Source: Calycina herbarum (taxonomy: Eukaryota; Ascomycota; Leotiomycetes; Helotiales; Pezizellaceae). From it: a stretch of DNA of 64,000 bases. Numbering within the stretch: position 1 is the stretch's first letter; each line of letters begins with the position of its first letter. The notes beneath the pieces were generated by a model, which saw only the letters and a program-made list of their open reading frames with translations, ran no database searches and had not been told where the DNA came from. Positions 1 through 31,600 of the stretch are shown here, piece after piece. Location: the NCBI GenBank assembly GCA_001414485.1, contig LLEY01000070.1, positions 62,001 through 126,000 on the forward strand, read 5' to 3'. The position numbers were made by a program, and so were the translations under genes.

Positions 1-644
1 AGGATATTCGTATACCTTCTCAGGCGAGAGTGTAAGTTTAGTTTTAGTATAACGGCCCTCTATAAATATACTATAAGAGATACTTATAGAATAGTACCTA
101 TATTCGAAGAAAACTAAACTAAAGAGAGAAGAGGAGAGTTAGTACGCTCTGTCTCTATTTATATACACTAAGCGAGACTTCGGTAGAACCTCGGCACGTG
201 ATCCAGTCGTATGTGACTGGGACTGTTATAAGTCGTTACAAACGTAGAGATACTCGAGGGATCCGTTTATAAGAAGAGAGGCTATTATAGGCGGAGAAGG
301 AGGGTTGTAATTATACTATTATAAGTATAAGATCTTCTAGCTATTATAAGCGTAGAATCCGGTTAATATTATAATCTTTTATAAAGAGTAAAAAGGGTTA
401 AGCTTTAAATAATATTATAATCTATATCTAAAGGCAAAGGTATAAGAATATATATATATATATTCGAGAATTTAAAGCTACAGTTCTAAGAACAAGGGAA
501 TATAGAATATATACTCTACGAAAAAGAGGTATTCCTACTAACTATAAAGAGCTTTTAATCTCGTTATAAATCCGTCCAAGCGTTGCGGCTCTGACGGTCA
601 CGTGTAGGACAGAGAATCACGTGTTACAGACCAGCGCCGTAACA
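1..644 (-). repeat. LTR-like AT-rich repeat, reverse strand, cut by window edge
   Basis: Read on the reverse strand, this stretch begins with TGTTACGGCGCTGG at 644, directly after the 3' end of the gypsy body at 645-6393, which is where an LTR should start. It carries a TATA-like box (near 150-160) and several CACGTG motifs. It does not resemble the 463-bp LTR at the other end of that element. A related stretch lies at about 58140-58400 on the forward strand. It may be the LTR of another family or a replaced 3' LTR. The left end is outside the window. Confidence 0.45.
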
Positions 645-3600
645 GTCCTCCTTTCTTAAGTCTTTCTCTTAAGTCCTTGTCTTCTTAGTTCTCTGCTTTT
701 AAGATAGCTTCTTTCGTTAAGTAGGTGCTTTCTAATAATACTTCTTTATTTAACCCTAGTTCTAAATTCTAGGCAGCTCTAGGTTTTGTTAGTAGAATTC
801 CTAAAGTTATATTAGGTAATAATTAAAGTTATTTTTTAGTTCTTAAGTGTTTTCTAAGTATAAGTAATCTAACTATTTAATTAAGTATTTGATTTATTCT
901 CTAATAAATCTATAGTTAAGAATCCTCTTAACTTTATACTTAGCGTTTAGGTTTACTAGTTAAATTTCTATAAGTAGAGCTAGTAGGGCTCCTAGTAGTA
1001 CTAGTTTAAGTAGAGATATATGAAATACTAAGTAGATGTTTATTGTTTTTAGTAATACTAATTTATAATTTAAAGGTCACTTAACTCGTTTATTACTTAG
1101 TCTTTTTATATTAATATTTTTCTATACTAAGTAGACTTTATCTCTCTCTTTTACTATTAGCTTCTAACTACGTTGTTTATTATAGTAGTATACGTTTCTT
1201 TTAGTAATAAACTATAAATCTTCTATAAGTTCCTTATATAACTCTTTAATTTTTAAGACCTAAATATAAGTAAGTTAATTATTAATAGTCGTAGATAGTA
1301 GTTCTTAATATACTAATAATTTATATCTATAATTAGTATAGAATAGTATAATAAGTGTTATTTCTATTACTAAGCTATTATAAGCAAACTATACTAAGAG
1401 CAGTAGTTCTACCTAGTTGTCTTACTAGTAGTTTATATAATAATAAAAGTATATTTTAACTACTTAATTTATTTATTTATTTCTTCTATTTATTTAAAAG
1501 TAGAAAGCTATAAAGAGCTTTCTTTTTATACTTAATCGTTTTATAAGAGCGATCTAAAATTTTAAGATAAAGAGTTTATCTCTATTTAAGAGTATTTTTT
1601 TAAGTAGTCTATATCTTAAGACTACTTCTCTAAGAAATGCGAATACTAATTCCTTAGCTATACTTAACTCTATATATACTACTAGAATTATATACTTTGT
1701 AAGTTATTCTATAATAACTAGGATCGTGTTATACTTAACTTCTATTATTAGATCTTTAGATTTTAGTAGTTTAATAATAAAATCTATAGATATTAATTTC
1801 TAAGGTATTTATAGTATTAGAGTAGTATTTATCTATTTATAAGAAGTATAGTAGAAAGCCTTATTTCTAGTATAGGTATTATATTCTACTATTACTTCTT
1901 TAACTATTATAGATAATCGATTAATATAGTAGTATTATCTTATTCTCTAGAAGGTTCTACGAATTCCTTAGTAGCTATAAGTAGGCGTAGTATAGTATTC
2001 TTATATAAACTCTCTTATATACGAGCTAGGAACCTATAGCTTCTCTTTCACGTACTAGTTATAACCTTTATATATACTTTAGATTTTATCTATCTAAATA
2101 TTATTTATTACTACTATCTTATATATAGTAAGTACTAAGTTGCTATTTCTATCGTATTTTAATATTATAGTATCGACGTATTTTTTGTTTTCCTTATAAC
2201 CTGGTTTCTAGCTTAGAGTATTAGCTTAAGCGTTACTTATTCTACTAATATATCGAATAATTATCTTAAATCCTACTAAAGTTTTAGACTACCTAGCTAG
2301 GCGTCTTATAATAAGTTCCTTAGTTATAGTAAATGTTTTTAGATTTAGATAATTAGTAAGTACTATTACTAGGTACGATATACTCTAGAAGTAAATCCTC
2401 TATTCTTCGAGAGCTAGAATAATAGCTATAAGTTCTTTGTTATAAATGCTATAGTTCTATTATACTATATTAAAAGTTTTTAAGAAATATACTATAAGTA
2501 TAAGTTTTCTTATCTTATTTAGTTATAGGTGTATAGCACCTACTACTATATCTAAGGCGTCTATTTCTATTATACTTAGTTTCTTATAATTAAAATTATA
2601 TAGAATAGGTTTTACTATAAACTATCCTTTGATTTCCTAGAAGGCCTTTTTAGCCTTCTTATCTTAGATAAAAGCTATAGCTTTTCTAGTTAGTATTAAC
2701 ATAGGTTTTATAATCTTTATATAGTCTTTAATAAATAGTTAATAGAAATTAGTAAATCTTAAGAAGGATTATATATCTTTAACGTTTTTTAGTAATTCCT
2801 ATTTAATAACTATATAAATCTTTTCTAGATCTATTTCTATTTTCTCTAAGCTAAATACCTATCTAAGAAAGAGAGTTTTTTTAACTCTAAACTTATATTT
2901 AAAGAGTTTTAAACAAGAGTCTACTTTAGTAAGTCTTCTTAAGACTTCTTTTACATAGCTCTTATATTCTTCTAGATTTTCTAAGAAAATTAATATATTA
3001 TCTAAGTAATATATAACAGTTACTCTTAAAAGATCTTCTAAAATACTATTATTCTATCTCTAATAAGTAGCTAGTATATTAGTTAAACTAAAAGACATTA
3101 TCGTATACTTATAAAGTCCTAATAGTAAGACAAACGTAGTCTTCTATTCATAGCCTATCTTAATCTTAATTAATCTATAAACGTTCTATTAATCTAGTTT
3201 TATAAATTTCTTTACTTAGTCTAACTTATCTTATAAGTACTAGCTAGTTAGTAACAGATAAGCGTCCTTAATTATTATATTATTTAATTCTCTATAATTA
3301 ATATATACTCGTCTATTTAGATCGTTCTTTTTCTTAATAATAAATATGTTTAAAGAGATAAACGATTTAGATTTTTAAATATATCTCTTCTTTATTCCTT
3401 ATTAGATATAACTTTCTAATAAAGCTAAGTTATTCTAGTTATATAGTCGAAGCTTCTACTTTCTAAGGTTATAACCCTCTATTAATTTAATCTTATAATC
3501 CTATAGTTAATATTTAGAAAGAGTATATATGTCTTCTAGGTCTTTAAACAACTTTATAAATTCTCTATACTATATAGGTATTTCGTTATTAGCTTTCTTA

Positions 3601-6393
3601 CTAACCTATAAAGGACCTTAGACAAGGTGTTCTAGTACTTTAGAAGAGGTAGCGCTAACCTCGTTCTAGCTTTAAAGTTATAAACATAAACCTATATATT
3701 TATATTAACTAAAGGTTATTATTCTAGCTTTCTAATCGATCTCTAGATTATATTCCTAAATCTATAGTATACTAAGTATTACTTTCTTACTCTCTATTTT
3801 AATAATATTAAATTATATATCTAAATAGTATCCTTTAATACTAACTTTCGTTAGAATAGTTTACTAATTAATAATCCTATTTTAGTATATAACATCTATT
3901 CTATTAACTACTCCTAGATAATATAGTCTTATTCCTTTAATTAGAACGTTTAGCTCCTCTTAAGCTATTAGAGAAATAAAGTTGTCTATTACTCCTAAGT
4001 CTATTATAACTTATAACTTCTTCTCTTATATTTCCGTAGTTATTACTAACTATCTTTCTCCTAAAGTAGTGTTTAACTTTATTTTAATATATTAGACTTC
4101 GAAAGATCGATTTTCTTAATTATAATTCTTTCTCTTCTCGTTCTTATACTATAGAAAGAATCTTACTCTTTCCTTATTAGTATATACTATCTTATATACT
4201 AATCTATATTCTACGATTTCTATAGTCTTAGGAATTCCTCTTATAAATCGTTTTAGTAATTATCTATAATTATATTAGATCTATTTATAACTAATTTCTA
4301 AAATAGCTTCTATAAACTATAGTTCTCTTATATTCTTCTCTCTAACTGTCTAAATCTAGGACTAAGGAAAGAATACTACTCCTTCTTTATTAGATAAAGC
4401 TACCTCGTATATCTAATAATATTCTACTATTCTAGTAGGTTCTAGTAAAATTCCTTTAAATCGCTTTTATAATAACTAGTCTATAGTTAGGCTTAGTTTA
4501 TACTATATCTATTATACTATTATTTCTTATACTGTTTTTATAAACTATAGTTCTTCTATTAATAGATAGTAAAATTCTTCTGGTTCTGTTTTAGCTTATC
4601 TAGTTATATTAAGCTCTCTTTATTCCTAGAATAGTATACTAAATAGCTACTATAAGTTATATTTTCTAAATACTAGCCTATTATTTTTAATTAATATAAC
4701 TATAATATAATATTTAAATTCTTTTAGTATAATATCTTTAGATAGTGTTCTAAGAAAAGAGGTTTTAATTTATCTCTTAAATCCTATTAAGACTTACTAT
4801 GTCTATATACTGATTTTATTCGAAATATTATATATCCTTTATACGTCCTCTGCTTTAGAGTAGCTAGGTTTTTTAGTTAGTTATTATTCGTGTTCTAGTT
4901 CTTTTCTCTTAATAGTTTCTTACCTAGTAATTAGACTAACTAGAGTTATTATTTTAGGGTTATTTCTTATAACTATATATATTATTAAGATAGTTAGATT
5001 TACCCGCTATATAGTATAAGGACTCTAGAAGTCTAGCTTCTAGTTATTAATATATACTTATCGATTTCCTTATTTAAAGGTTTTAAGAAAGGCCTATGTT
5101 TCTCTAACTTTAGGATTTTCGTTTCTAACTTCTCTCTCTAAGCTAGAAGATAAGTCTAATATTTCTAATAAACTAGTTAATAGTAGTAATTTATATTTTA
5201 TTTAAAGATATTACTTAGATACCTTATATAATTATATATTATAATTTTCTTTAAAGAGTAGATCTCTATTATTATTAGTATCTTATATATTACTAAATTC
5301 TTTATTATTTTTAATCTAGGTTCTATATCCTTATACTTCGAGTTCTTTATCTATAAGTTTAATATAATTAGTTAAGGCTACCTATTATTAAATAGTAGTA
5401 TTGATTTATTTCTTTCTCTTAGAGTCTTTCTTCTTACTATACTTATTTACTCTATAGCTAGAGAGACTATAGTTATAATATAAGTTCTACTTACGTTAAC
5501 GATTTCGCTCTTCCTAGGAAAGTCCTTCTTTCTTTAGAAAGGTTTTCTTTTATATAGTATTTACCTCCTTACTATATTTAGTATAGGAGTACTTCTACTT
5601 CTCTAATCTCTTACTCTTTTCTCTATACTTAGGGTTACTCTTCTTAAATTTATATAAGCGATTATCTAGCTAGACAACTTCCTTAATTATACCTATAATA
5701 GTTAAGAACTATATATTCTACTTAGCTATTTCCTTATAAATATATATCTTTAATCCTCTATAGAAGAGTTCTATAAGAGCGATAGTATTCTATTCTAACT
5801 TTGTTCTATATTATTGAAATTTATTAGTATAATCTATTACTAATCTAGTCTAGTATAATTCTAAAAGCTTATATATAGCTATTTAGATTACGTCGAAGTC
5901 TCTAAAGACTTTCCTAATAGTTACCTTAAATCCTCTCTAAGATTTAAATATAATCTTAGTTAATTCTATCTTTATATCTTTATTCTTATTCTTAAAGAAG
6001 TTCTCTAAGTATAGCTAAGCCTATTCTAACGCTAATCCTCTAAGGTAGGAGATAGCGAAGATAGTTTGTAAATTATAATTACCTTCGAATTTATTAGAGT
6101 TAAAGTTAAAGTAGATGTCTATTTAAAGAAGGAATAAGTCGAGTTCCTTTCACTTCTTATAATACGTGTCTAGTATCTTAACTTTAATAGATTTAAGTGC
6201 TTTAACCTTATAAAGCTCGGGGGTGTCTAGTATACTAACATTGTCGTCGTTCCTAGTTAACTATATACTAGTAGGTGTTCTTCTAGTAGTACTTCTAGAG
6301 GTTCCTATAACGTTAACTTAACTAGTATTTAAGCTAGCTGCTATAGAGGTTACTAGAGCTATAGTAACTAAACTTCTAAGCAGATACTTAAAG
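645..6393 (-). mobile_element. RIP-degraded Ty3/gypsy chromovirus body (family 1)
   Basis: The reverse strand matches, stretch by stretch, the forward gypsy copies at 37240-43087 and 46434-52128. The gag region is near 6300, the reverse transcriptase near 2900-3500, the integrase further left, and a chromodomain-like tail at about 770-1000. All frames are full of stops, mostly TAG/TAA where Trp or Gln codons would stand. This is dead sequence. It is bounded on the right by its 5' LTR (6394-6856). Confidence 0.8.
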
Positions 6394-6856
6394 TATAATA
6401 AAACTTAAATAAACTAAATAAAGATAACTAAGTCTCGAAGGTTAGTATATAGATAAGAAGTATAGATATACTAGGTTGTTTACTTAGAAGTAAACTCGTT
6501 ACTTATATTAAAGATATTAAATAAAATAATAAGATTAATAACTAAAGTTAAGTACAAAGCTCCTATCTAATAGCAGACGTGCTAGTCTTATATAGAACCT
6601 TCTGTTTATATTTAAAGTCCTTCTTAGTAGGAGTCCCGAAGATAGAGTCTGACTCTATTTCTAAGGCTTCTTAAAACTAGACTCTATTACCTAACTACTT
6701 CTAACCGAGTTACGTAATATAACTATAATAAGATCCTAGGATTGTATATCTTACTATATTTAATCCTTTCTTTCTTTCAGGGTTATAATAGTACTCGTCC
6801 TATTAGAGCGTCGCCTGGACTTCACTTCGTCACGTGCTAGCACGTGATTCGTAACA
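6394..6856 (-). repeat. Gypsy family-1 LTR (U3 type beta), 463 bp
   Basis: On the reverse strand it starts TGTTACGAATCACGTG and ends at the family-1 LTR end (TTATA in RIP form). The R/U5 half is nearly the same as in the LTRs at 36776, 43088, 45970, 52129 and 58480. The U3 half matches only the LTR at 52129-52590. It is the 5' LTR of the element to its left. Confidence 0.8.
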
Positions 6857-8030
6857 CTAAAGTAGCTTAAAAAGGTCTTTAAAAGGAATACAAAACCTAA
6901 GTTACTAAGGACCTACTAACTCCTTCTTATAGACGGCTACTCCTTATATATTAATATAAAGTTTATTAACTTTGTAGATTATTACTATATAATTATTATA
7001 ATCTTACCGCCTTATATAATATATCGATTATAGCCTCTCGACGTTAGCCTATTCAGACTACTAGCCACCTTCTACTCTAACGGACTAGACTGATTAATAT
7101 CTATTTCTTAAGAAATAGTCTCGATATTAAAGCGATTTTTCTATATAATATTTAAGTTAGAATAGGATAAGGCCTTTATAGAGTATAACATTATATATGC
7201 CTTCTATAAGTCTAGAATCTGGCTTATTACTAGACAAAAGATAATAGACTAAGTAATAAAGCCTACTTTACCTCTTCGCTCTTATACTAGAGGACTTAAA
7301 ACACCTCTTATTTCAAAAGCAATTCAACGAGCCTTCTTAGACTTTGAGAAATCACTTTTAAAGCTTAAAGCGAATAAGGTCTTCTCTTCTATCCTTACTC
7401 TCTCGAGTTAAGTTAGTATTCTTTTCTTATAAAAACGATAGACTTAAGATAGCTATTATTCTTAAGAATCAGAAAAGAAAGAAGGGAAAGAGACTCAATC
7501 TTTGTAGTAAGGAGAGTAAGGGAGTAGAAGTCTATTCTCTAGAGAAGGTTATAAAGGCTAGGGCATATTAGTAAGAGAAGGAAGAGGTTTTGAGATAAGA
7601 AGAAGAAGCAAAGGAAGAGAGAAGAGTTAAGAGAAAGGCTAGGGCACTTCTCAAGGAACAAAAGGCTAAAGAATTAGCTAATAAGAGGGCAGAAACTCAG
7701 CTTCTAAGGGAGCTAGCTACTGTAACTCCTAGGGCTCTAAAGCAGAAGAGGCCTATATAAGTTACACCAAAGAAGATTACTCCAAGGATGCCCCAAGTTA
7801 AGAAAGAGTCAAAAAAGGCTTCTAAAGAGCCTAAAAAGCCAAGTAGAATAGTAGTTCTTATAGGTGTATTTATTACACAAGGGGTAGCCTCAGTAGTTCA
7901 GAAAAGTAGGTCAGGACAGCAGATTAAAGTGCCACTTCGTACTCGCACATAGTTTTTTATACTGAATATCTATTTAACTACCTTTTATTGATCTCCTTAC
8001 TTAATTATATACAAATCTAATGAGTGGTTG
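6857..8030 (+). mobile_element. 3' part of a Fot1/pogo-type DNA transposon relic
   Basis: From about 7150 to 7950 the forward strand reads, through scattered RIP stops, as the C-terminal tail of a fungal DDE_1 (Fot1/pogo) transposase: a stretch with QRAFRDFEKSLLKLKANK followed by a long Lys/Arg/Glu-rich coiled-coil-like tail. The catalytic core is not recognisable; 6860-7150 is heavily mutated. It forms the left margin of the gene island, and composition normalises within about 100 bp after it. Confidence 0.55.
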
Positions 8031-17200: not shown

Positions 17201-20200
17201 TCAGAAAGAATGAGATCAGTCCCACTGAACCCCTGACCGCTCAAAACACTGTTCCATCTCTCTGTCGTAATAAAGGGACTCCACTGACGGAACTCCTCAA
17301 CACCCAGCCACCAACCGGGTAATAACCCAAATACAAAATTAGCATAAATAGTTTCAGGACTGGTGACTTCATAAAGCATCAATTTCCCACCTGGCTTCAA
17401 CAAGTTCCTCGTATTACGAATCGTAGCACTGATATCCTTGGTAGCATGCAGCACATTTGCAGCAATGATGAGATCATACGATTCGTTCTCGAACCCCTGG
17501 CTCTCGGGATCAACTTCGATGTTGAAAGTTTTGAAATTCATATTCGTACATCTCTCAAACTTCTCACGAGCCTTCTCAAAGAAAGAAGCCGAGATATCTG
17601 TGAAATCGTAGGTGTCGTAACGTCTTTCCCTATCTCCAGACACCAATGTTCGCATGATCATCTCCGTGGTTCCACCTGTCCCAGCGCCGATCTCGAGAAC
17701 TTTCATACCTGGGTTTTTGTGAACGGCCGCATCGAGGTATTTAGCGAATTGCTGCATGCAATTTGCACTTTCATTCATATCCTCGTAAAACTCCGTGGCT
17801 AGAGTACCATTGAAGAGAAGGGAGAGGATATCAACTTTCCCATTGATGATACCATCCAGTGCCTCGACGACTGCAACGTAAAGTGGACCTTGTCTATTGG
17901 TATTGCGTATGCGGTCACAGGCCTGTTTGAATAAGAGTTCGTCATTGACAAGTTCATTCCAGACAACAATTTTAGCCAGTGTCGAAGTTTCTTGGAACAA
18001 TTTTACTACCTTGGCCATCCACTCTTGATATCTTTGTAGATGAGGTCTTGTGGGTTCGAGATCCGAAGGAGGCGAAGATAGACTTCTCTGCATCGAAGCA
18101 TGAAGCAATATATTGAGGTCGTGAAAGAATTCAATTGGTTCATCATCTTTCGGAATCTCCTGGCAGAATTGTAAGAGTGCCGTCTGACTAAGAAGGTCGA
18201 GATCCGGCTTCCAAGCTACCCCACAGCAAAGTTGGGGTGCTGGTTCCACTTCTGCCGAGAGAGTTTGGGATATGTTGGTCATTTCTAGACCATCAATCCG
18301 CAGGAGCAAGGTTTGCGCGTCCTCATCCAATACTCTCAAAGTGCTTTCTGTGATGCGGCCATCTAGATGTGCACGAGCGGTTGCTTTGAGGGATTTCTCA
18401 TCATTGCTCATCCCCGTTTTCGAAATCCACATGCTGTTCACTCGAGTTGGGAGGCCCAAGTCAAGTTTATCTTGACATCCATTCGTCAAAGCAGCAAATG
18501 CAAGCTGAAAAATACCATCCAAAGTAGTGGGATGAATGATGTGTGGTTCTAGGTAATCTTGATAGATGTTGATACCCGCAGTAGCGGCATAATCCTCGCC
18601 AGCTAGAATGTCTGCAAAACGCTGGAAGGCTTTCCCATAATCATAACCAGCTTTCCGCAAGAAATTAAACATGTTTCTGGGAATGATGGTGTTAGGACAG
18701 AGACTCTTGATGTTTTCAAAATCTTCAAGATGTGCTTGTCGGTTGGTAGAAGTAAGAGAGACGGTCTTTCCTCTGGGTACACCTGCCTTTTTGTAAGTAA
18801 TGTGCGAAAACGTTTAGGACAATAACATTCATTCTCTGAGAACGTTTAGAAGAAGCAAGAAAACGTATTCTCAATTCTTCTAAATGCTCTTGCACAATAG
18901 TTGAAATTGTGTCAGAATTCTGGGGCAATGGAAGGATGGTGTAGGCAGAGTAAAGCCGGGGGTCTTACTCCTTTGCCAAGATGATAACTCTTCAGCAGGC
19001 AACTTGTATTCAACTTGTATGTTTCCACGACAGACCTCAGTCCAATGTCCAACGAAGGTAGATATTCTGAACTCATACCAAGTAGTAGAAGTGGCTGTAA
19101 TTTGCTCAAGCGGATGAAGAAAGCATTGTGTTTCTAGACCTTCGGGGGTGGTTGGAATTGTCATTGGAGCAATGAAGGTTGCATCCTTGATACAAAAGCC
19201 TTTGACAAGGCGAGAGTGATCGGCCAATTGATTGGCAGCTTCAATTGCCATGCACAACATTCCGGCAGCTGGATACAGCGTTGAACCGCCGACTTTGTGG
19301 TCCACAACCCATGGTAACTCCGACACTTTAACAAAATTCCTCCACCTAGCTTCATTGGGATTCCAATCGGCTACGTGTGTCCCAAGGAGATCATTTTTAG
19401 CGACTTTTCTAAGCCGTAAACCTTGACTCAAGCGTGATTCGGACCAGTAAGACTTCGAATGGTCGAACGGGTATTCTGGGAGGTCGACAAGAGGCTTTAA
19501 ATCCGTACAATGTTCCATTTGATTTACACGAAGTAAATTGATGGGATATCCCAGAGAGTGGAGATTTCCCATAGCTGTCAAAGTTGTCGTCATGGCGCTG
19601 TGATTTCGAACCAAAGCAGAGAAGTAGCGTATGCTGCTGCTTTTACCTTGTGTCACAAGGGTGTCTCTTATGGGTCCTTGTAATGCAGAATGTGGTCCGA
19701 TTTCTAGTAAGTCATTGACATACGCGAGATCTCGGTGAGTTCCATTGAGCTTCTTTCTTATTTTACCAGTATTGATACGGAATTTTGTGAGCGCCTTTGC
19801 AAAGTTGACCGGTGAAACCATATTTGCAACCCAATATTTTCCACAAGATAATTCTTGGGGAGGAACTCGCGATCCTGTCAGAGAAGATATCATGTCCACG
19901 CCTGATTTTGGTTTAATTTCATCGGATTCTAAATTGTCGAGAAGGCCCAAATATTCATCTGCGATGGCGTTCATCATCGGGGAATGATAAGCAACTGGGA
20001 CATCTAGTACACGAGCGAAAATAGCGTCTTCGTCCAGTAACTGCTTTAAAAAATTGATATCGGCTTTCCTTCCCGAGATTGTAGTACTTTTCGGACTATT
20101 CACACAAGCAACGGTGAGACTTTGTCGATTGGTTTCTCTGAGAACGAGTTGGAAGTATGGCATAACTTGCTCTTCAGAAATACCGACAGCCATCATAGCT

Positions 20201-23200
20201 CCCCGGTCTTCTCTACTTGAAGCAGCGAGCTGCGACGACAGAAGACCTCGGAAGTATGAAATGCGACAAGCCGCCTTAGCTGAAATAGCGCCTGTGGTAT
20301 ACCTGGAATGATTTAGCGATAAACACTTCAGGTTCGTACCTGCCCATCTAGCTCATTGTCCCAACTTTTTAAGGTAACTTATGTAAATTATCCTGAATAC
20401 TTGGAACAATTCAAAATATTACCCTATGTGTTTAGAGCAACCATGTTTCATTGTTCTAAAGTATTTAGGGCAATACCAAAATTGTGCTGAACTTCCTATA
20501 TCGTAAAGAAAGTTAAACTTACGCAGAAGCGATCTCCCCACTGGAATGACCAACCACGACAGTGGGGGTGACACCGAAGTGCCTTAACAGAGCCACTACC
20601 GCGATTTGGATAGCAGTGCAAATAGGTTGACTGAATTCTGGTTGACTGATTGAAGAAGTCAACTTGTCTCGAAGAAGCTCATCTAAAAAGGTCAGTTGTG
20701 ACAATCAAGAGAAGGATCATCACTTACCCATCAACGACCATTGACAGCCAATATCCTGAAGGTGTTCTGAAAACTGTAGAAGAGAGTCTTTGAATACTGG
20801 AAACGATAATAATTCTCTACCCATAGCAAACCACTGAGCCCCTTGTCCTGTGAAAACAAATCCCAGCCGAGGTTCGGAAACACATGTTTGCTTTGGGGAA
20901 AGATGGGGTTGGAGCCCACTCATCTCACGAATCGAATTCATCAGCGCCCAGGTTCGGCATTGAAACTTTGTTCGCCGTGAATTCAAAGTATAAGCTAAGT
21001 TCCTGAATTGATTGTCGACTTCCATCGAGATAGATGATTTCTTGTATGTGTGGTGCTCATACTGATCCGTAACAGTATTCAGAGCCTTCTCATCAATCGC
21101 CGACCAAGTCAACAGGAGAGGGCGATTGTTATCGGAGGGTATTGAGCCACTCTCAGAGCTTTGTGTATTGTATCCCTCATCAGAGATGGCGGGTGACTTT
21201 GGCGTGCCTAGGTTGGGAGGATGGACAACGGTCTGATGGTTGCCCAGTAAATTTCGAGCTTGGAGGTAATGGAAAGCATCGTCTAACAAGCAGTGTTATT
21301 AACTCCAGATTCCAAATACTCCACGAGACGAACAACGTACCTAAAACAACATGCTGTGGATGATCCCGGAGTCAGTATTGCCCTTTCTAGAGGTATGTTT
21401 GAGGAAAAGGAGGATAGAACAGAGTTATGAGAGGATGTAAGTTGTCTGAGGAAGAAATGGTGTCTTAATCCTCCTATAACAACCTGAAAGAGGAAAATAG
21501 AACTAGAGATTACTCACACTATTTGAACCACCAAATCCGAAGGAATTAACCGAGGCGCGGCGTAGACCATCACTAGGCCAAGCAGTTGCTTCAATGGGAA
21601 ACTGTTCTCTGTTATTAAGCATGAGTAGTGAAAGGGAGTCCGTTCTGGTCAAACATACCTCAAGGTTCTGAAATTTATGGTCGATTTTGGTGTTCAACTT
21701 CTCGAAGTTGGCGTTTGGTGTTATCAACCCATTCTCAAGTATGAGCACTGTCTTTATTATTCCACCAAGACCACTGCATCCTTCTAAATGTCCGATTATG
21801 GACTTGACCGCCCCACTAAATTTTCGATATATTAGGATAGTAAGAGAGACGGGCTTTCTTTTGAGTACACCCCCTTTCGTAAATATTGTGCGAAAGGGTC
21901 TAGGACAAAATCGTCTATTGTCCGACGCGGTCTAGAAGAATCGAGAAATCGACTTCTCAATTCTTCTAAACGCTCTCGCACAATGATTTAGATTGTATAA
22001 GAGTTCCTAATGAAGGGGATGTACGCAGAGCAAAGCTCGGGATTGTTACCCACGGACCGAACGGAGCTACTTACATGTAGAACGGCTCTTCAGGACTGCG
22101 AAACTTTCTAAAGCAGGCACCTATTGCATGCGCCTCGATAGGGTCTAATTGTCCACATAAACATCATAATTTGCTTGTGGTAGGGATAATTTGATACGTA
22201 CCTCCTGCGGCAGTGCCAGTGCCGTGCGCTTCCATAAATCTCGTAACAGACATGTCCAGGTTTGCTTTAGCATAAGTCTCTCTTATCAAGCTTTCTTGTG
22301 CTTCTGGGCTTGGCTGTGTGATTTGAGCGGTTCTTCCATCAGAATTTGATCCACAAGAACGAATCACAGCACGAATGTTGTCTCCATCACGGATTGCGTC
22401 CGACACTCGTTTGAGGACAATGACACTCACGCCCTCGCCTCTTCCATAACCATTCCCGCGTTCGTCAAAACTGAAGCATTTCCCGTCTGGTGATAGAAAA
22501 CTCATTTTCGACAGAAGTAACATCCAATCGATATTTAGGATCAGATTGCTGCCAGCAACGAGACTCTGGACAATAGTTAGAGGTGTGCAAAGAGTTTCGG
22601 AATGAGATTTACCATATTTGCATCTCCATTTCTCAGACCTTGGCATGCAACATCCAATGCCATCAAACTACTCGAGCACGCAGAATCGACATTGAAAGAG
22701 GCACCATGCAGATTGTAGAACCAGCTAATGCGGTTTGCTAGCATATTTGGCGATAACCCACTGCGGAAGATCTCGAAGTCAGTATTGCCTTTTCTAGAAG
22801 TATGTCTGAGGAAGTAACAGGGTAATGGGGAGAAAACAAAGCCGTCTAAGGAGGAAATAGTGTCTCAATCCTCTTGAAACAATCCGAAAAGGGAAACAGT
22901 AACTCGGAGAATACCCACTTTGCACCATAACTAGAACCATTCTCGGGGTCTTTCGCGTTGATACTCTTGTAGTCGTCGGTAAAGGATGCAGAATAAACAG
23001 AAGTGCTCGAGTGTGAAATCTCATTTATGGAAATCCCGGCTAACTAGATTAGTCTTTATAACACCCACTCAACAGAGACAACATACCACTTTCAAGTGCT
23101 CTATAACTCGCTTCCAACAATAGTCGTTGTTGGGGGTCTAAGCCGGCAGCCTCCGTTGCAGATATAGAAAAGAATGGTGCATCAAATGCAGCAATATCTT

Positions 23201-23478
23201 CTTTTATGAAGTGACCACTAAGGCCATTGAGCTGTTTTCTTGTCAGTGTGATCAATCGTCTTCAGCATTAGGGTGCATACCGTGTCTGTTCTTGTTTTAT
23301 CCTGATGATAGAATGAGGGAGCTTCCATTCTCTCGGGGGGTATTTTGGTTGAGAGACATCTTCCTTCTAGCAAAGATTTCCAAAAAGAGTCTGGAGAGGT
23401 TGCCTCTTGAGGGAACTTCAGTGCCATGCCAATAATAGCGATTGACTCCAACTCGTCGGGAATAGGTGGGGAATCCAT
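14266..23478 (-). CDS. Highly reducing type I polyketide synthase, complete (2570 aa)
   Basis: Exons, 5' to 3': 23281-23478, 23087-23231, 22919-23039, 22613-22760, 22202-22565, 22075-22144, 21659-21815, 21518-21601, 21341-21353, 20728-21282, 20523-20682, 18969-20302, 15550-18734, 15180-15500, 14266-15123; total 7713 nt, one open frame. Domains: KS about 10-430 (Cys183 in DSACSSS, His318 in EAHGTGT, His358); AT about 572-890 (Ser665 in GHSSGE); DH about 975-1270 (His1007, Asp1189); C-methyltransferase about 1400-1620 ([12 protein letters not shown] at 1463); ER about 1850-2170 ([10 protein letters not shown] near 1988); KR about 2190-2400 (GGLGGVG, Tyr2340); ACP (Ser2521 in GVDSL). All catalytic residues I can check are present and there is no thioesterase, so release needs a partner; the hydrolase 723 bp upstream fits. 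Five introns are unusually long (see introner entries) and exon 9 is only 13 nt. The product should be a reduced, methylated chain; its structure cannot be read from sequence. Confidence 0.95.
18735..18968 (-). mobile_element. Introner-like element, family A copy 1 (PKS intron 12, 234 bp)
   Basis: The intron interrupts the DH domain. Imperfect inverted repeats of about 40 bp (AGTAAGA...CTTT...TACACC) lie at 18756-18800 and about 18925-18969. The GTAAGA of the outer terminus is itself the splice donor; the acceptor lies 21 bp beyond the other terminus. Inner palindromes repeat a core like AACGTTTAGAAGAA, so the transcript could fold into one long hairpin. It resembles 21816-22074 across its length in the same orientation. 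Confidence 0.8.
20303..20522 (-). mobile_element. Long intron with MITE-like core, family C (PKS intron 11, 220 bp)
   Basis: It splits the AT domain just after GHSSGEIAS. Its middle (about 20420-20482) shares a core with the intergenic repeat at 25141-25273: an ATTACCC-like phrase, TTTAGARCAA, CATGTT, then TTTAGGG and AATAYYAAA. Inner inverted repeats (GGAACAATTC / GTTCTAAA-type) suggest a hairpin. The similarity does not obviously reach the splice sites, so this may be a small element inserted in an older intron. Confidence 0.55.
21341..21353 (-). other. 13-nt PKS microexon
   Basis: CATGTTGTTTTAG lies between intron 8 (21354-21517) and intron 9 (21283-21340). Only with it does the KS end read SNSHVVLDDAF in frame, the usual phrase after the GFGGSN motif. 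It is already counted as PKS exon 9. Confidence 0.8.
21354..21517 (-). mobile_element. Introner-like element, family B copy 2 (PKS intron 8, 164 bp)
   Basis: It runs from donor GTGAGTAATCTC to acceptor CATCCACAG near the KS end. It aligns from donor to acceptor with PKS intron 3 (22761-22918) and, more weakly, with NRPS-like intron 2 (29389-29536). Shared blocks: GGATT(A/G)AGACAC, CTCAAACATACCTCTAGAAA and ATACTGACTCC near the 3' end; the last contains a CTGAC branch site. Confidence 0.85.
21816..22074 (-). mobile_element. Introner-like element, family A copy 2 (PKS intron 6, 259 bp)
   Basis: It splits the KS domain before the third catalytic His. Bases 21838-22055 match family A copy 1: AGTAAGAGAGACGG at one end, TACACC, GTGCGAAA, TCTAGGACAA and TCAATTCTTCTAAACGCTC inside, and a GCAGAGCAAAGC-like end. 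About 19-22 bp of other sequence lies on each side, including donor GTAAGT and a branch-like CCTAAT before the acceptor. Confidence 0.8.
22761..22918 (-). mobile_element. Introner-like element, family B copy 1 (PKS intron 3, 158 bp)
   Basis: The intron runs from donor GTGGGTATTCTC to acceptor CTTCCGCAG and interrupts the KS about 28 residues before the catalytic Cys. It aligns across its whole length with 21354-21517, for example TTGAGACACTATTTCCTCC, GACATACTTCTAGAAAAGG and CAATACTGACTTCGAGATC. Confidence 0.85.
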
Positions 23479-24201
23479 GGTAGCACTTCGATTTGCTTGG
23501 GATGCAGTTTGTTCTTCTACTTGGGTTCAAGAATTTATATAGGGGCGACCAAACCAAATTGAAAGATCCCTCGATGTGTCCGCCTAAGAATTTGAACGTC
23601 ACCGACTTTAATGGGATTAAGGATTTTTTTTTCTTGCAGACAACAATTTCGGTTGAAGACAATATCACAAATTGGATTTGGAGAATGAAATTTATCACAT
23701 TTAAAGCAGCTTGAAGGAAAGTTGTCAGTCCAAAAAGCCAAATTGACACTAAACGAGCAGGGAGCAATCCTACACCGCCAATAAGGGTCCTTCTGCTGAG
23801 AAGACGTTTTAGGAAGGACTCCTCGCCTACGAGTCGCACATTGTAGTCCAGTCAAGTGTCGTCAAAGATGGGATCGGTGATGACTTGAGAACTTGGGCAA
23901 TGAAGTGTCCGAAGTATGGGTCTTATCTACTGTGCCGCTCGGGCTCGTAAGCTGTGCATAGACAGGTCAACGGGTTACCACAGAGTCCAACTGCCGTTGA
24001 GAATCCACAAGCTAAACCTGATTTATTCAACACTTTCGTGGCTTTTATTTCTATCAGGACTAGCTTAAAAGTACCAATGGTTGACTCGAAACTTTTGGAC
24101 AAAGTGCTACTACATAAGTAGAAATTGTCCAGAAGAAGGCCCAAATATCCAATGATAGACAATCAACATTGAGAATCAACATACTTCTACACCAGAACAA
24201 C
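23479..24201. promoter_or_regulatory. Divergent promoter region of PKS and hydrolase
   Basis: This 723-bp space separates the start codons of two divergently transcribed genes and so must hold both promoters. No coding frame is convincing. I could not assign a factor-binding site with confidence. Shared control of the pair is an inference from the layout. Confidence 0.5.
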
Positions 24202-25066
24202 ATGCGCTTCTTATGTCTCCATGGCAAAGGCACCAGCAACAAGGTACTTTCTAGACATGAAACCATTGAAAGAAATCAGTACTAACTTGAGAAAATATTA
24301 CAGGTTCTCGAAATGCAAATTGGTAGGTGATAATGGCAGAAAATGTCTCATCTTCGAAAATCTCGTCGGTTAACATATCGAAGCAACGTTGAGAAATGAG
24401 ATTGGAGGAAACCACACGTATGACTTTGCGGAAGGCTCTTTCCTGGTCGAAGCCGAACCAGGTATGTTGATTGCTGTAAGGCACAGTGTTGGAAGGGAAG
24501 TCTACTGATTTTCCGCAGGCATCAAACATCTATTCCCGGCTGAAGATGAATACTTTTCCTATTTCGAACCCGCCAGAACAGGAAGTCTCGCCACCGCGTT
24601 GGCTGACCTGGAGAACTATATTGCCACCGAAGGGCCTTTCGGAGGGATTATCGGCTTCTCCGCCGGGGCTGGCTTGGCTGCAACGTTGATACTTCGAGCT
24701 GCATCCAACGGTATGAACGCGGCGCCGTTTCAATGTGCAATTTTTCTGTCCGCAATGGTGCCATTCGATGAAGATCTGAAGCAAGAAAATGGCGCTGTCG
24801 AATTGTTGGAGCTTCCGACAGGTCAAAAAAGGATCGAGATCCCTACTGCTCATATATGGGGTTCCAATGACGAATGGCAAGGCAAAGCGGAAATATTAGC
24901 AGGCATGTGCAAGGAGGAGAACAGATCCATTTATGTCCATCAAGGAGGACATGAGGTCCCCAGTAGCTCCAGGTCAAGGGACGCAGTTACCAAGGCGGCA
25001 CATATCGTCAAAAGGGCGATCTGCTTGGCTGAAGATGAGCATGTTATTTGCAGGGAGCGCTTGTAG
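24202..25066 (+). CDS. FSH-type serine hydrolase (LovG-like), likely polyketide-releasing
   Basis: Four exons (24202-24243, 24304-24322, 24384-24461, 24519-25066; introns 60, 61 and 57 bp) give 228 residues. The start MRFLCLHGKGTSN has the LHG motif typical of the FSH1 alpha/beta-hydrolase family. The nucleophile is Ser94 in GFSAG; likely acid Asp164 (WGSNDEW) and His191 (HQGGHEVP) complete the triad. Length is normal for the family. Fungal members next to highly reducing PKS genes (LovG is the known case) free the chain from the ACP; the divergent position beside a PKS without thioesterase supports that role. All four exons agree in phase. Direct proof of substrate is not visible. Confidence 0.9.
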
Positions 25067-25140
25067 GGCCAAATGGTAAGAGGAAGGAGCTTTGCGATGA
25101 ACAGCAAAGCGGCAGTATGTACTTTGAGTTCCACAAGTTT

Positions 25141-25273
25141 ATAGCTCTCGTTGTTCTAAATTTCTAGGAGCATTTTGATATATTAACCCAAATATTTAGA
25201 ACAAGCATGTTCAACTGTCTGGATTTTTTTAGGGTAATATTAAATGCTACTAGAAAGCAAGAACAATGAGAGC
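25141..25273. mobile_element. MITE-like element with about 38-bp inverted repeats (family C)
   Basis: The left end AGCTCTCGTTGTTCTAAATT and the reverse complement of the right end AGCTCTCATTGTTCTTGCTT stay alike through TTTCTAGNAGCATTT. There is no coding capacity. It sits 75 bp after the hydrolase stop codon, and its core recurs inside PKS intron 11. Confidence 0.75.
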
Positions 25274-26402
25274 TGCTCCTGTTTACTGCCGCTTTTGCTG
25301 TCCATTGCGAGGGTGGTCACAGCCTTAGGGACGGGGAAGATGGAGAAGTCTTCGGGAGAAGTCTAAGGACAGTCAGCACCAGAAATATCAAGTGTACTAT
25401 CTCATAAATGATTATTACTCGCCTACTACCGTTGAAACTCGACTCTAAGGTCATGGTGGATCAAATGGTGGGATTAAGCTACTTGGCGTGAAAAGAAAAG
25501 GTCTCATCTTCTTGATATGCCTCCTTCTCTCTGGCCAGTAGGGATCGCCATACTTGCCAACACGAAGACATCGATCATCCGACATTTTGATCCACTCGAC
25601 ACGGTACCGTTACATGTTGGATTGCGTTGTAGTTGAGAAGTGGGGCCACAAATGGGAGGATTGGGTTCGTACATCTGGGGGACGTTTCTGATGTGATCTG
25701 ATCTGCGCGAGGTTAGTTTAACTGGAGATGAGACAGAATATGGTCTATACTTGGTCCTTGATATGAGTTTAGACCTCAAATAACTCGCCTTTTAGTATAT
25801 ATTATCGAAATTATTAAGTGTATTAGTTGTAGAGATTTAGTAGGAGAAACACACTTCTACTAATTTGTGTCAAAAAGCGGAGATGCCCAGATGTCGTGAG
25901 ATGTTGAAGCTAAGCATATGACTGCGCTTAGTAGACCAATCACCAGTTGAATCTCGTGTGGGTAATTCTATTCAACCGGTCCGTGCCGCACCGCCGCGGG
26001 TTCCTTCCCCTTTAGGCGGAGCTCCTTCAGTACCATAATCTGCGTCCTGTATCGTATCAGTAAAACTGTACCCGAATCCACCCAGGTACTATATTTCGAC
26101 TCTGACTATTCAGCCCTAGACTTTGGCTATTTGGCCCTAAGCTAACCTAGTCGGGCAGTCTGTCCAACATACAAACCACAACCAAAGGGTATTCCACTAA
26201 TCCTTACGCTTAGACCTAACCTAAACCCGAGCTCTAACTCTAACTAACCCTAACTAGCACAACTCTAGCCACTAACCCTAGCCTATCGAACCAAGTTACT
26301 ATCCCGTTGATTTGTGAAGTAGAAAGTAGCAGGGTTGATGCTTATGAGTCGCGAAGGATTCCTCGGAACACCCATATCGGTTCACATTTACTGCCACTGA
26401 TT

Positions 26403-26451
26403 TCTTGGAATCTCTTGGAATTCTCTTGGAATTCTCTTGGAATTCTCTTGG
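26403..26451. repeat. Tandem repeat, unit TCTTGGAATTC, about 4.5 copies
   Basis: Four near-identical 11-bp units and a partial fifth can be read directly. It lies about 120 bp beyond the 3' end of the PTH11-like gene. Confidence 0.85.
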
Positions 26452-26573
26452 GAGTATGGAGAGGCCATTAAAGGTTTAGTTATACGAGTACAAGACACTT
26501 CTTCGCAATCTTTTTTACAGCGAATATCCACAGTCCGAAACCCCTGCGCTCGATCGACCCCAAATCGTATGTC

Positions 26574-27811
26574 TCATCGAGCGGGCTGACGTGATGCTAG
26601 GGATACCTCGTAATCTTGCTTGACGATAATCTGGTGCTTTCCAAACGCAGTCCCGTCTTTCGGACTCGCCATACATGCAGCACTGTTTTTGTAATTGCCT
26701 CCATGCTCTTCAACCCCAAGGGCGCCATTGAATCCCCCCCCTCCCATCTGAGGTTCCATCGAAGCGAGTGGCACATCATGGTTTCCCGAAGAGGAGATTT
26801 TGTATCCGCGGGGCCGTGACTTTTGGGTAGTATATGTTCCCAGCGAACTTCCGTGTCGCAAATGTCGAATCAAGGGACGCATGGTAACCAAACATGCTGC
26901 AATAAGATACATTCCTGGCTCGATGATGGTCCACAACATCAAGTCCGCGGACGCCATAGTTGCGTCTGCGAGTGCGTCCTTCCCAAAGAACGTTGCAAAT
27001 CGAATGATGGAAATGATCAAGCCACTGCAAGAGAGTCAGTAACTATTTGGTAGATAAACCGGGAAGGGAACATACGTGCTCCCCGTCAAAAATGTCACTA
27101 CCAAGCCCAACTTCTGGTTTTTGGTCGAGTGGAGGCCGTATATGAGTGGCAGCGGAAGGACCAAGATGCCAACATCAGTCAAAATGTTTGGAAAGCTAAT
27201 CCATCGGAAGAAGGCATTGGTATTAATGCAATGTCCCGGGAGACTCTTGTCCCAAAACTTTGCTAGAGGAATGCAACTCAAGCTTGAGGTCAACCCACCA
27301 GCCAGAAAGTTGCCTATGACGACCGCGACCAACAAGTAACAAGTCATCCGGTAGGCTTTCTGCGTGAAGATTCGAAGATACAATACTATCACGCAGATCT
27401 TGGGTAACGTGACCGCCGTTATGTATATCCACTGTATAGCCAGGAGAAGTTTGGCCCAGATCACAATCTTATGGGACTCTCCCAGCATTGCCAATGCCGA
27501 AACATGGCGTCCCACGCCTCCATAATCTACCATTACTATTTCGCTTGTGTCAGTAACAGCAACTGCATCGCCGGGGCTTTCCATTTCATACCAAATCCAA
27601 TTATGTTAATGGCAAGACAAAGTACCAATGAAGGCCAGATCAAAATATCATCCAACCCCATCTTCGCATCAGACAAAGTTCTCGACCATGTTCTCAGAAG
27701 CACGAAAATTATCTCCAACGGGATGAAAAAGGCGGCAAGTACAACAAGCTTCAGCCCGTGGTACTCGTAGAGGTATTCTCCTGTTGCATGATGGGCGGGA
27801 GCAGAAGCCAT
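26574..27811 (-). CDS. PTH11/SAT4-type seven-helix membrane protein
   Basis: Exons 27619-27811, 27076-27562 and 26574-27024 (introns 56 and 51 bp) give 376 residues. Several hydrophobic helices follow a short N-terminus: LKLVVLAAFFIPLEIIFVLL, then the family's DDILIWPSLVL, the YGGVGRH loop, helices around WIYITAVTLPKICVIVLY and LLVAVVIGNFLAGG, the FPNILTDVGILVLPLPLIYG helix, two more helices and a polar tail with Gly-rich and basic stretches. These match the fungal rhodopsin-like integral membrane family, often called PTH11-like receptors. No CFEM domain is attached. The start at MASAPAHH leaves a normal short N-terminus; an in-frame Met at 28039 would add 76 residues. The first intron has a weak donor (GTCTTG), so that junction is less sure. 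Ligand and pathway are unknown. Confidence 0.85.
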
Positions 27812-28673
27812 AGCTGCTAGCGTACGGTTTTGAGAGCAAAGCTTTGCGTTATCTGGTGGGATGTACGATGAAGAAAATGGACTGGCTATCAGCTTATGAA
27901 GCGTTACAGTATTAGATGCCTCCCTTGTCAAGCCTCCTGCTGAAGAGGCTGAGCAAAGTGGGCTATCCTTCCAAACCCATTCTTCCTCCACAGGAGATGG
28001 AAGATGGCTCCCGCCGAGGAAGGAACGACATTCATTCATGGTTATCTTCTATATCCCTTTTGAGGAGAGTATCCCGGGGGATCTATGCACCTGTGAGGGG
28101 GGGGGGTTGGCGTACAGTAAGACAAAAATACTTTCGGCTCCATGTTTCTCATGGCAAACGGTTGGCGCCAATGGAGAGTTTCTGTGCCTTTTTCTTGCTT
28201 AATCTTGATGCACCTTTGGGAATTGTAGTTTGAACTAGTAGGATCTGCATGGAAAGAACCATGCAGGTTTTTCAGAGCGCAATTCCGTTTTGAGACCGAC
28301 CATAGGTAGTACACGCCTTGTAAGAACGATCGCACACCAACACCAACACCAACAATCTCGAAACTCCGAAAAGACTTTTCAACCTCCCCCTCTGACTCCC
28401 CACAATTCTGGTTAATTGCCCCAGTCGATTCAGGGATGCAATTGAAGGATGCCAACCATGTTGCAGCTGAAAGGAGCTTTTAATGTTGGCGGGACTGCCA
28501 AGGTTCCCCTCATCTACTCGACCAGCTTCCAACATAATCGATGCAGTGAGAGCTGTTGATAGTGGTTGTGATATTCACTTCCACAAAATACCTCTACTGT
28601 AGACATCTTCCTCGCAGCTTTAAAGCAACAGTCTTATCCTTTCATCACCACATCCACCACCACTTACAGCATC
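27812..28673. promoter_or_regulatory. Divergent promoter region of PTH11-like and NRPS-like genes
   Basis: This 862-bp space lies between divergent start codons. A CT/CA-rich stretch (CATCACCACATCCACCACCA, about 28640-28660) precedes the NRPS-like ATG, as is common for fungal 5' leaders. Overlapping short frames here have no recognisable domain. Confidence 0.45.
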
Positions 28674-31600
28674 ATGGCAAACAATACCTCTCCAAGCTCC
28701 AATCTTCCCGAATACTATCCGGGAAAGAAGGATACTCTTACCAACATCGTTGACTTTACAGCCCGCAAAACACCCCAAGCTCTCTACGCGGAATTTCCCA
28801 TCTCACCAACCTCATACGATGCTGGATATCGTAAAGTCAACTACAAGACCTTTGCAAATGCCATCAATGGCACTGCCTGGTACCTCCACGAGACCCTCGG
28901 GCCGGGCAATGACTTTGAGACTTTGGCATATATCGGTCCCAATGATATGAGGTACAACGTTTTTGCCTTGGGTGCCGTAAAGGCGGGGTATAAAGTTCGA
29001 ATCACCATTTCGTATTTTGAATATGAATACAGCTGATAATTGGAATAGATGTTCTTCTCCTCACCCCGAAACAGTGTTGCGGCTCACACCCATCTTCTCG
29101 AAGCTGTTGACTGCAAGACAATCTTGGTTCCAGATCCACAACCAGCAATGATTCCTTCCATTCTTGCCGCATTCCCTCTGAAAGTTATAAAAGCACCGAG
29201 TGTTGATGAACTTCTCACTAAAACGTACCCGCCTTATCCCTATAATAAGTCTTTTGAGCAAGCCAAACTCGACCCCCTTATCGTTTTCCATACGTCAGGC
29301 TCAACCGGTCTTCCGAAACCGGTAACATGGAATCATGATTATGCGGCTGCCTACTTCAACATGATTCAACTTGATCCCCCACCAGGATGTGAGTACCCTG
29401 CTTCTCTGAGTGAGTTTCTTCTTTGGGTAAAAACCAGAGCTGAGACATTCCTCATTCTTAAACTTTCTTTGAGGCTCTTACTCCTTCTACTCCTCAAATA
29501 TTCCCAAAGAAGTAAACTGACTCCGAGATCCTGCAGACGAGAGCAACGATAGGTTGGTCCAAGCAAACCGGGTGTTTTTCATGCTTCCTCCATTTCACGT
29601 AAGTCTCTTCAGTGGTCTGTCTATCTTCAATTACTTACGTCTCACTTAGGGTGCAAACCATCTGATAACTCTCTGCGCGGCCATTGCCACTAGAACAGCA
29701 TGGATTTACCCATTGGCGTCTGCCATTCCATCTGCGAAGGTCTTAGCCGATGGCCTAAAACACACTATTGCAGATGCTGCCCTCATCGCGCCCCCAACTG
29801 CAGTTGACCTCGCAAAGGATGCAGAAACTCTTGATTTCGTTTCCTCACGGTTGGATACAATGATTTTTGCCGGTGGGGATTTGCCTCAACCTTTCGGAGA
29901 AGCCATCTCGAAAAAGATGCGCCTTGTCGATATATATGGAGCTTCCGAGGTTGGAAATCTGCCTTCCCTTCGTCCTGAAGGCGATTTCGTTCGCGAGGAC
30001 TGGCATTATACGCATTTTCATCCAAATGTTGGGCTCGAGTTTCGACATCTGAATGAGAATCTTTACGAAATGTGGGTGGTACGTGACCCAGCTATCGAAG
30101 AGCATCAGCCCATCTTTAAATTGTTTCCCGAACTTACCGAGTATTCCACCGTAAGTTTTTCCCCCACATAAAATAAGAAGATTTTCTAATCTAATACACT
30201 TTCAGTGTGATATGTATACGCCTCATCCAACCAAACCCAATCTCTGGGCTTATGGCGGGAGAAGTGACGACATTATCGTGTTCCTTACAGGCGAGAAGAC
30301 AAATCCTACGACCATGGAGCACCAAATCACTAGTCATCCTGAAGTTAAAGCGGTTCTTGTTACTGGAGCTCAAAAGTTCCAAGCGGCTTTGCTCATTGAG
30401 CTCATCGATGAAAAAGAGCTAGGTCCTTCAGAACGTGCGGCAGTTATTGAGCGTATTTGGCCAAAGGTCCAAGAAGCCAACCAGGTTTGCCCAGCTCATG
30501 CGAAAATCGCAAAGACACACATACTTTTGGTAGATCCAAAAAGACCTATGGGAAGAGCTGGCAAAGGAACGGTATGTGAAATTCCCATAAATGCCTCATC
30601 TCACAGATGTGGGACACATCTTTTACGATCACTTGCTCATCCCTTTCCAGATTCAAAGACCATTGACAGTGGCTATGTACGCTACGGAACTCGAAGCATT
30701 ATATGCCGACGCCGAAAAATTGAAGTCATCATCGACAAACCCTGACATGAAACCAATAGATGGCCCACTAACACTTGAGAGGGTCAGTGCTATCTTGGAA
30801 AAGCTCGTAAAGCTTCAAACTGGATGGCAGAAAATTGACCATGCAGACAATTTCTATGTTGTTGGTATGGACTCATTGCAAACGTTACTTCTCACGCGAG
30901 ATATGAAGCAGGCTTTTCTGCTTCCAGAGATTGCTCCAAGTACCGTGTACACAAACCCGTCGATCGCACAACTTTCGCAAGCCGTCCTGGATATCTCCCA
31001 ACAGATCAAACAATCCGGAGAACAAGCAGAACAAGAAAGAAAGCGTGCCATCAACGAGACACTTGACAAGAAATTCAAAGTCATCGACGATATTGCAGCT
31101 GCATCTCCAATAACAAATGGACAAAACGGAGTCGCCAGCGATAAACAAACCGTGATTCTTACCGGATCCACCGGAAGCTTGGGCTCATACTTATTACATG
31201 CGCTTCTCAATACTCCTTCGGTCTCCCACATATACTGTCTTAACAGAAGCCCCGATTCTCAACAAGTCCAAGTCAAGCGAAACGCTTCCCGTGGACTACC
31301 AATCGACCTCCCTACCGACAGAGTCTCCTTCCACACAGTCGACTCGGCCAAAGAAAAGTTCGGCTTAGATCTATCAACCTACAACACCATCCTCCAAACA
31401 ACCACAAAGATATTCCTAAATGGCTGGTCTGTAAACTTCAACACCCCTCTTTCCTCCTTCGAACAACAAATCGACGGCGTGATCAACTTTGCCAAATTCG
31501 CAAAACAAGCTCCCTCCCGCCCCACAATCTTCTTCGTCTCCTCCATCAGCTCGGCTCGTGGTCTTTCTGATACAACGACCCAAATCCCGGAGGAAATCAT

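Follow-up and report, generated by a model that had tools for sequence, protein, structure and literature searches.

Introner-like introns of two related subfamilies in the genome of Calycina herbarum

Introduction

The question raised by a 64,000-nucleotide stretch of the genome of the helotialean ascomycete Calycina herbarum (assembly GCA_001414485.1, contig LLEY01000070.1, positions 62,001 to 126,000; hereafter the window) is why three long introns in two different genes, one for a polyketide synthase (PKS) and one for an enzyme resembling non-ribosomal peptide synthetases (NRPS-like), should be alike from one end to the other. The evidence, all of it read from the sequence, consists of the number of copies, their limits at splice sites, flanks that are unrelated, host proteins that are collinear in the cases checked, absence from those paralogues of the ketosynthase (KS) domain that could be judged, lack of a robust target-site duplication (TSD), complementary near-terminal arms and two composite introns. 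On these grounds the three introns very probably belong to one introner-like family, namely of U2-type introns which copy themselves whole, from donor to acceptor and in sense orientation, into new exon sites of other genes and leave the protein unchanged.

Introns that multiply in this way are known from other fungi. Dothideomycetes harbor introner-like elements (ILEs), on which a further paper by van der Burgt from 2012 is said to exist. ILEs have been described in Fulvia, Dothistroma and Zymoseptoria (Collemare et al. 2015, PMC4457414), and proliferating 'sister' stwintrons together with cropped sister introns in Hypoxylaceae and Xylariaceae (Fekete et al. 2021, PMC8469720; PMC9024468; PMC12403724). 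The stwintrons of Xylariales possess terminal or near-terminal inverted repeats, the 3′ member of which is located between the branch site and the acceptor in the 2025 paper (PMC8469720, PMC9024468, PMC12403724). In a eukaryote-wide survey introners were found in many eukaryotes (Gozashti et al. 2022, PMC9860276); most families outside the ascomycetes show TSDs or terminal inverted repeats (TIRs), and ascomycete families are described there without TSDs and without TIRs.

Results

Relatedness of the three introns

All three introns run from GT to AG at the positions originally predicted (Table 1), and PKS introns 3 and 8 both lie inside a single KS domain of the same gene. The accompanying statement that the other introns of the window measure 45–79 bp is not entirely correct, since PKS intron 6 has a length of 259 bp.

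As predicted, the three introns can be aligned with each other from end to end. When the 64-kb window is searched, PKS intron 3 matches PKS intron 8 with 72% identity over 168 columns (E = 1.4e-18), and the global alignment score of this pair is 142 compared with −17 in dinucleotide shuffles. PKS intron 3 and NRPS-like intron 2 score 62 versus −19, PKS intron 8 and NRPS-like intron 2 score 48 versus −19, and for every pair none of 500 shuffles (0/500) reaches the observed value. When the splice ends are kept fixed and only the interior is shuffled, the score of PKS intron 8 with NRPS-like intron 2 is reached by 5/500 shuffles and that of the other two pairs by 0/500; the former pair is therefore weak if taken alone.

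The single family B of the original prediction stands with respect to the relationship of all three introns but not as one tight family, as it consists of two subfamilies, B1 (PKS introns 3 and 8) and B2 (NRPS-like intron 2). A profile hidden Markov model (HMM) of B1, for which all seeds were relatives of PKS intron 8 and NRPS-like intron 2 was not among them, detects the latter in the window with an E-value of 2.1e-5 over profile positions 8–162. Below an E-value of 0.1 neither the B1 nor the B2 HMM reveals another copy there. Among the copies in the genome, the B2 HMM matches a B1 copy (locus L031, E = 1.2e-7, positions 14–155) and the B1 HMM matches B2 copies at E-values down to 1.5e-5, many of them across positions 8–162. 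Because each model matches members of the other subfamily, several over most of their length, B1 and B2 are related to each other. Their signals are of the same kind as well, with a GTGRGTA donor, a CTRAC branch site and an AG acceptor.

The 90 loci fetched from the genome, many of them overlapping, comprise 74 unique copies, 44 of B1 and 30 of B2. Mean pairwise identity is 82% in the alignment of 40 B1 copies and 85% in that of 26 B2 copies; the aligned sets exclude both L086 copies, L087, L059 and L082 and again include PKS intron 3. The most similar pairs are 97.0% (B1) and 96.7% (B2) identical, so that some of the copying must be regarded as recent.

Copy number in the genome

Within the 68.8 Mb of the genome PKS intron 8 yields 41 matches, i.e. 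itself, 39 others that are 79–86% identical to it along its whole extent or the greater part of it, and a single piece of 54 bases (40 of 149 first-look candidates scored, window copies included). NRPS-like intron 2 likewise yields 41 matches, with 40 of 54 candidates scored and the window copies again included. Apart from one 43-base piece, all of these (40, itself included) reach its 3′ end and 31 of the 40 span all 148 bases, with identities from 70% to 96%; four further B2 copies are 94–96% identical over 148/148 bases.

A 28-base pattern of the B1 3′ end with up to 3 mismatches occurs at 134 genome sites and a 33-base pattern of the B1 5′ end at 99, while a joint 3′ motif with 1 mismatch occurs at 199; the control, reversed for the first pattern, gave 0 in each of the three scans, whose counts overlap one another. 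The genome search thereby bears out the expectation that many copies lie between GT and AG in unrelated genes. The hallmark of introners, a large number of introns in one genome that resemble each other from end to end and sit in unrelated genes, is found here.

An explanation by unrelated introns which are alike merely through splice signals and pyrimidine-rich composition could appeal to the 5/500 interior-only shuffles mentioned above. It is refuted by identities over the full or nearly full length of 79–86% in B1 and 70–96% in B2, rising to 97% between copies, and is further contradicted by the empty controls of the three pattern scans and by the profile E-values, so that its probability is negligible.

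At three loci (L003, L008 and L021) the first copy is accompanied, at a distance of about 30–115 bp, by another piece of B1 or B2 that is only partial; some genes may therefore have been hit repeatedly.

Coding context and host proteins

For 70 copies with a matched branch-site pattern the intron was taken to extend from the donor to the first acceptor 3′ of the branch site; four of the 74 copies (L008, L018, L077 and PKS intron 3 of the window) have no such matched pattern and were left out. At least 20 open codons are present on each side in one phase in 61/70 copies, compared with 55% (sense) and 40% (antisense) of random GT..AG pairs from the same loci. With at least 50 open codons on each side the figures are 37/70 copies versus 16% and 4%, respectively. 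In one copy (L015) a longer frame is obtained with an alternative acceptor. Among the copies with at least 15 codons the phases 1, 2 and 0 are represented by 21, 9 and 7 introns in B1 and by 12, 4 and 10 in B2. A codon-usage score, for which 42 of these copies minus the one under test served as the training set, passes its limit in 95 of 140 flanks of 150 bases, 87 in sense and 8 in antisense orientation; the test is noisy, since other introns are close by.

Twenty spliced proteins, chosen by eye and partly as likely to be recognisable from 30 of the 42 copies whose flanking frames are each open for 45 codons or more, were compared with Pfam. In 14 of them a match crosses the junction, 12 times above the curated cut-off (HET twice, GH47, acyltransferase, Ldh_2, GST, enoyl-CoA hydratase, P450, two transporters, tyrosinase and GH18) and twice below it, whereas in two the match stops short of the junction and in four there is none. 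Homologues examined by eye, four in each case, are collinear across the junction of NRPS-like intron 2 (P0002, P0003, P0006 and P0007) and across that of the Ldh_2 host. One host protein shares 94% of its residues, along its full length, with a protein of Hymenoscyphus albidus, the name being that of the representative in a database clustered at 90%, and the next hit is at 81%; this probably places the genome in Hymenoscyphus or very close to it. Removal of one GT..AG segment joins open frames in most copies examined. As is typical of introners, the ends coincide with GT/AG splice sites and the predicted host frame is restored upon removal; the copies are probably spliced.

Empty paralogue sites and unrelated flanks

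Both PKS introns are missing from those KS paralogues of the genome that could be judged. At places with a single match across the site, intron 3 is absent in 18/18 and intron 8 in 18/18; the number of extra codons stays below 50 at every one of these places and does not exceed 8 at 14 and 16 of them, respectively. Places with a match starting or ending near the site were not counted, and an intron-bearing place would split and go uncounted in this way. The query was built with a later acceptor for PKS intron 7, picked by eye, as the acceptor chosen first broke the frame.

Similarity between the flanks of the 70 copies is confined to the pairs L062/L064 and L009/L011, to an insert common to L086 and L087 (see below) and to two short stretches, one of 21 and one of 31 bases. 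L062 and L064 are paralogues with 82% protein identity over 50 amino acids and have a B2 intron in common, as would be expected if ordinary duplication of genes or segments, or gene conversion between paralogues, had carried the introns along. This pair is, however, the sole one of its kind among the 70 copies, the scanned host proteins are spread over many Pfam families and the KS paralogues judged are without the introns; such an origin is largely refuted and must be considered very improbable. With copies that reside mostly in unrelated genes and flanks that are unalike, the spread of an intron as a mobile unit, as originally proposed, is supported.

The pair L009/L011 consists of HET-domain genes with 34% identity. 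Their B1 copies are located about four bases from each other (offset determined by eye), possibly by parallel insertion.

Near-terminal arms and predicted fold

The inverted repeats of both subfamilies are imperfect, interrupted near-terminal arms, which in B2 are set off from the exact ends of the intron (Table 1). The duplex formed by the consensus arms has a predicted energy of −29.5 kcal/mol in B1 versus −18.0 ± 3.4 for shuffled arms and of −29.1 kcal/mol in B2 versus −12.6 ± 2.8, with 0/500 shuffles reaching either value; for NRPS-like intron 2 itself −36.5 is obtained compared with −14.6 (0/300). The arm duplexes of PKS introns 3 and 8 are reached by 1/300 and 2/300 shuffles, respectively. 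Arm positions of the copies are paired in 94.0% (B1) and 92.7% (B2) of the cells versus 34–59% when the arms are slid, a control that favours the arm structure because the latter was derived from the consensus.

The outer helix, UCUC.GAGU with ACUC.GAGA, comprises eight pairs which occupy the same columns and are identical in B1 and B2. In the inner helix pairing takes place at shifted columns and with partly different bases, for which reason compensation between the subfamilies was not counted column by column. The consensus folds have z-scores of −3.4 (B1) and −2.3 (B2), and 29/40 single B1 copies fall below −2. A predicted stable fold or internal symmetry, by which ascomycete ILEs are recognized, is thus seen in the arm duplexes (0/500) and in the consensus z-scores.

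The 3′ arm of B1 (alignment A1) contains CTTCTAGAAA, one base off the palindrome WTTCTAGAAA of the Hypoxylon sister stwintrons.

Target sites and boundaries

Tests for TSDs with k of 2–5, made at 18 offsets, gave no robust signal in the 37 B1 and 26 B2 copies compared; without correction the lowest p was 0.022 for B1 (72 offset tests) and 0.09 for B2. In 86 of the 88 B1 copies, i.e. without L011 and L059, which have no clear acceptor, exon and intron end in the same three bases five times (5/86, p = 0.019, uncorrected); four of these five copies have unusual 3′ ends. Except for this one weak uncorrected signal TSDs are absent, as in ascomycete ILEs, and the duplication that marks an introner derived from a DNA transposon was not found. 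In the same 86 copies the exon bases upstream are correlated with the base at +1. At −1 the combinations A|T, G|G and A|G occur 15, 19 and 0 times (p = 0.005) and at −2 p is 0.003, from nine tests in all; in the B1 subgroup ending in CCGTAG, A|T is found in 7/14.

These data bear on the main rival explanation, a non-autonomous DNA transposon similar to a miniature inverted-repeat transposable element, which would have inverted repeats, splice signals by chance and a transposase to spread it. It would account for the near-terminal inverted arms of B1 and B2, it would agree with the TSDs or TIRs of most introner families outside the ascomycetes (PMC9860276), and the slight B1 excess of matching exon and intron end trinucleotides (5/86) would suit it as well. 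Neither the 37 B1 and 26 B2 copies nor the 86 B1 copies show a robust TSD, however. Furthermore, the elements begin and end at splice sites, and most of the copies read lie in sense orientation in open frames, whereas a transposon would presumably land in intergenic and antisense positions too. Besides the two composites described below, no longer element with the same ends was noticed among the copies examined, which were not searched systematically for one. A DNA transposon is therefore regarded as rather unlikely.

Composite introns

Two B2 introns, 418 bp (L086) and 404 bp (L087) in length, have an internal hairpin insert in common. They are 90% identical over 342 bp and their 300-base flanks are unrelated. 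The frame around L087 is open for 407 and 109 codons and that around L086, which has a weaker context, for 18 and 48. The presence of the same insert in two B2 introns with unrelated flanks argues that the intron was copied together with its cargo; a B2 intron that had gained a repeat seems to have been itself copied.

In a two-sequence comparison the insert resembles the hairpin repeat of PKS intron 6 (77% over 69 bp, E = 2e-9). The latter, about 210 bp in length, is a dispersed repeat other than B1 and B2, for which 57 matches, some of them on both strands, were obtained in the genome from 40 candidates scored, and it may represent another mobile intron family. A second copy is present in the window (Table 1).

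Features of the window

The coordinates of the introns, arms and host genes are compiled in Table 1. An Rfam search of the window gave no match. The GC content is 25–33% at positions 1–8000 and 32001–64000, compared with 43–47% in the block between 8 and 32 kb; AT-rich compartments are of a kind known from repeat-mutated fungal genomes.

Table 1. Positions of the introns, their arms and the host genes in the window
Feature	Position	Strand	Description
PKS intron 3	22761..22918	-	B1 introner of 158 bp; KS domain, ...SSYGA(N), phase 2
PKS intron 8	21354..21517	-	B1 introner of 164 bp; KS motif GGSNS|HVV, between S and H, phase 0
NRPS-like gene intron 2	29389..29536	+	B2 introner of 148 bp; adenylation domain, LDPPPG(Y)ESNDR, phase 1
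B2 5′ near-terminal inverted arm	29403..29427	+	intron positions 15-39; self-match 88% over 26
B2 3′ near-terminal inverted arm	29503..29528	+	intron positions 115-140; overlaps branch-site region ACTGACTCCGAGA
Host gene 1, 5′ part of PKS (KS and start of acyltransferase domain)	20800..23478	-	9 introns in assembled part; from spliced translation and KS paralogues, acyltransferase start recognised by eye
Host gene 2, NRPS-like / AMP-binding enzyme, adenylation-domain part	28800..30200	+	from spliced translation and collinear homologues
PKS intron 6	21816..22074	-	contains hairpin repeat
Second copy of hairpin repeat of PKS intron 6	18751..18968	-	

Discussion

B1 and B2 are an introner-like family in Helotiales, of a kind already known. 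They share with the Dothideomycete ILEs the occurrence of near-identical spliceosomal introns in many unrelated genes and of several families of differing ages per genome (PMC4457414); unlike these, their host belongs to the Leotiomycetes, the comparison being one of descriptions and not of sequences. The resemblance to the sister stwintrons of Xylariales comprises seamless insertion, lack of a TSD, loss of symmetry in older copies, and complementary terminal or near-terminal repeats, of which the 3′ one is situated between branch site and acceptor. It likewise rests on published descriptions, those of Hypoxylon included, rather than on a comparison for sequence homology. In contrast to the stwintrons, B1 and B2 are canonical single introns as far as they were examined (a search for nested introns was not made), they have more copies per genome and their near-terminal stem contains a central mismatch. 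As in the introners of the eukaryote-wide survey, likeness extends over the full width in many genes, and as in its ascomycete families there is no robust TSD, whereas the imperfect near-terminal inverted arms set B1 and B2 apart from those families, which are without TIRs (PMC9860276). In the literature searched for introners of Leotiomycetes and Helotiales the B1/B2 family is not reported, and to this extent the suggestion of a new family holds; the supplementary tables of the 2022 survey were outside the scope of this search and may list it already.

As to the route of copying, we lean towards one that is linked to RNA. The excised intron RNA would be held as a rod by its paired arms and would be inserted by reverse splicing, or by a related step linked to transcription, into the DNA of transcribed genes, where it would be copied to DNA. 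The arms would serve the insertion step, and the copies would decay once inserted. Insertion at transcribed genes through RNA fits the data because the copies have a sense orientation in exons, intron boundaries and no robust duplication, and because composite introns were copied as well.

Several observations weigh against the picture given so far. The open-frame statistic is only moderate by itself, since the loci are gene-dense; in 7/70 copies the frame on one side is open for fewer than 15 codons, L059 is without a clear coding context, and the codon-usage score backs both sides in one phase for just 26/70 copies, with 8 flanks pointing the wrong way. With regard to the target sites, the weak excess of exon ends that equal intron ends would fit an occasional TSD, and the B1 insertion sites appear to deviate from random, both of which are leads and not results. 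Finally, only 7/26 single B2 copies have a fold z-score below −2, the RNAalifold consensus is weak (−5.1 kcal/mol in B1 and −0.5 kcal/mol in B2) and no covariation was found among the copies inside either subfamily. The arms may therefore be an inherited ancestral feature. These observations on the fold would also fit, without proving it, a fold that is needed by the copying master and is not maintained afterwards.

The arms have been kept in both subfamilies despite partly diverged arm sequences and are placed as in the sister stwintrons of Xylariales. A tentative extension, which we consider doubtful in its full breadth, is that such near-terminal arms are what makes ascomycete introns mobile. 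The mobile entity would then be an RNA rod and not the substrate of a transposase, one mechanism would operate across Leotiomycetes, Sordariomycetes and Dothideomycetes, and the unit would be able to carry foreign cargo such as the hairpin repeat to new places.

The origin of new spliceosomal introns is a long-standing question, for which recent introner copies that are still similar to each other are rare natural experiments. The genome of C. herbarum seems to present a case of evolutionarily recent intron birth. It offers two subfamilies with copies up to 96–97% alike, a fold that can be mutated, sister species with published genomes for a direct comparison of insertion sites, provided that the placement in Hymenoscyphus is right, and composite introns with cargo.

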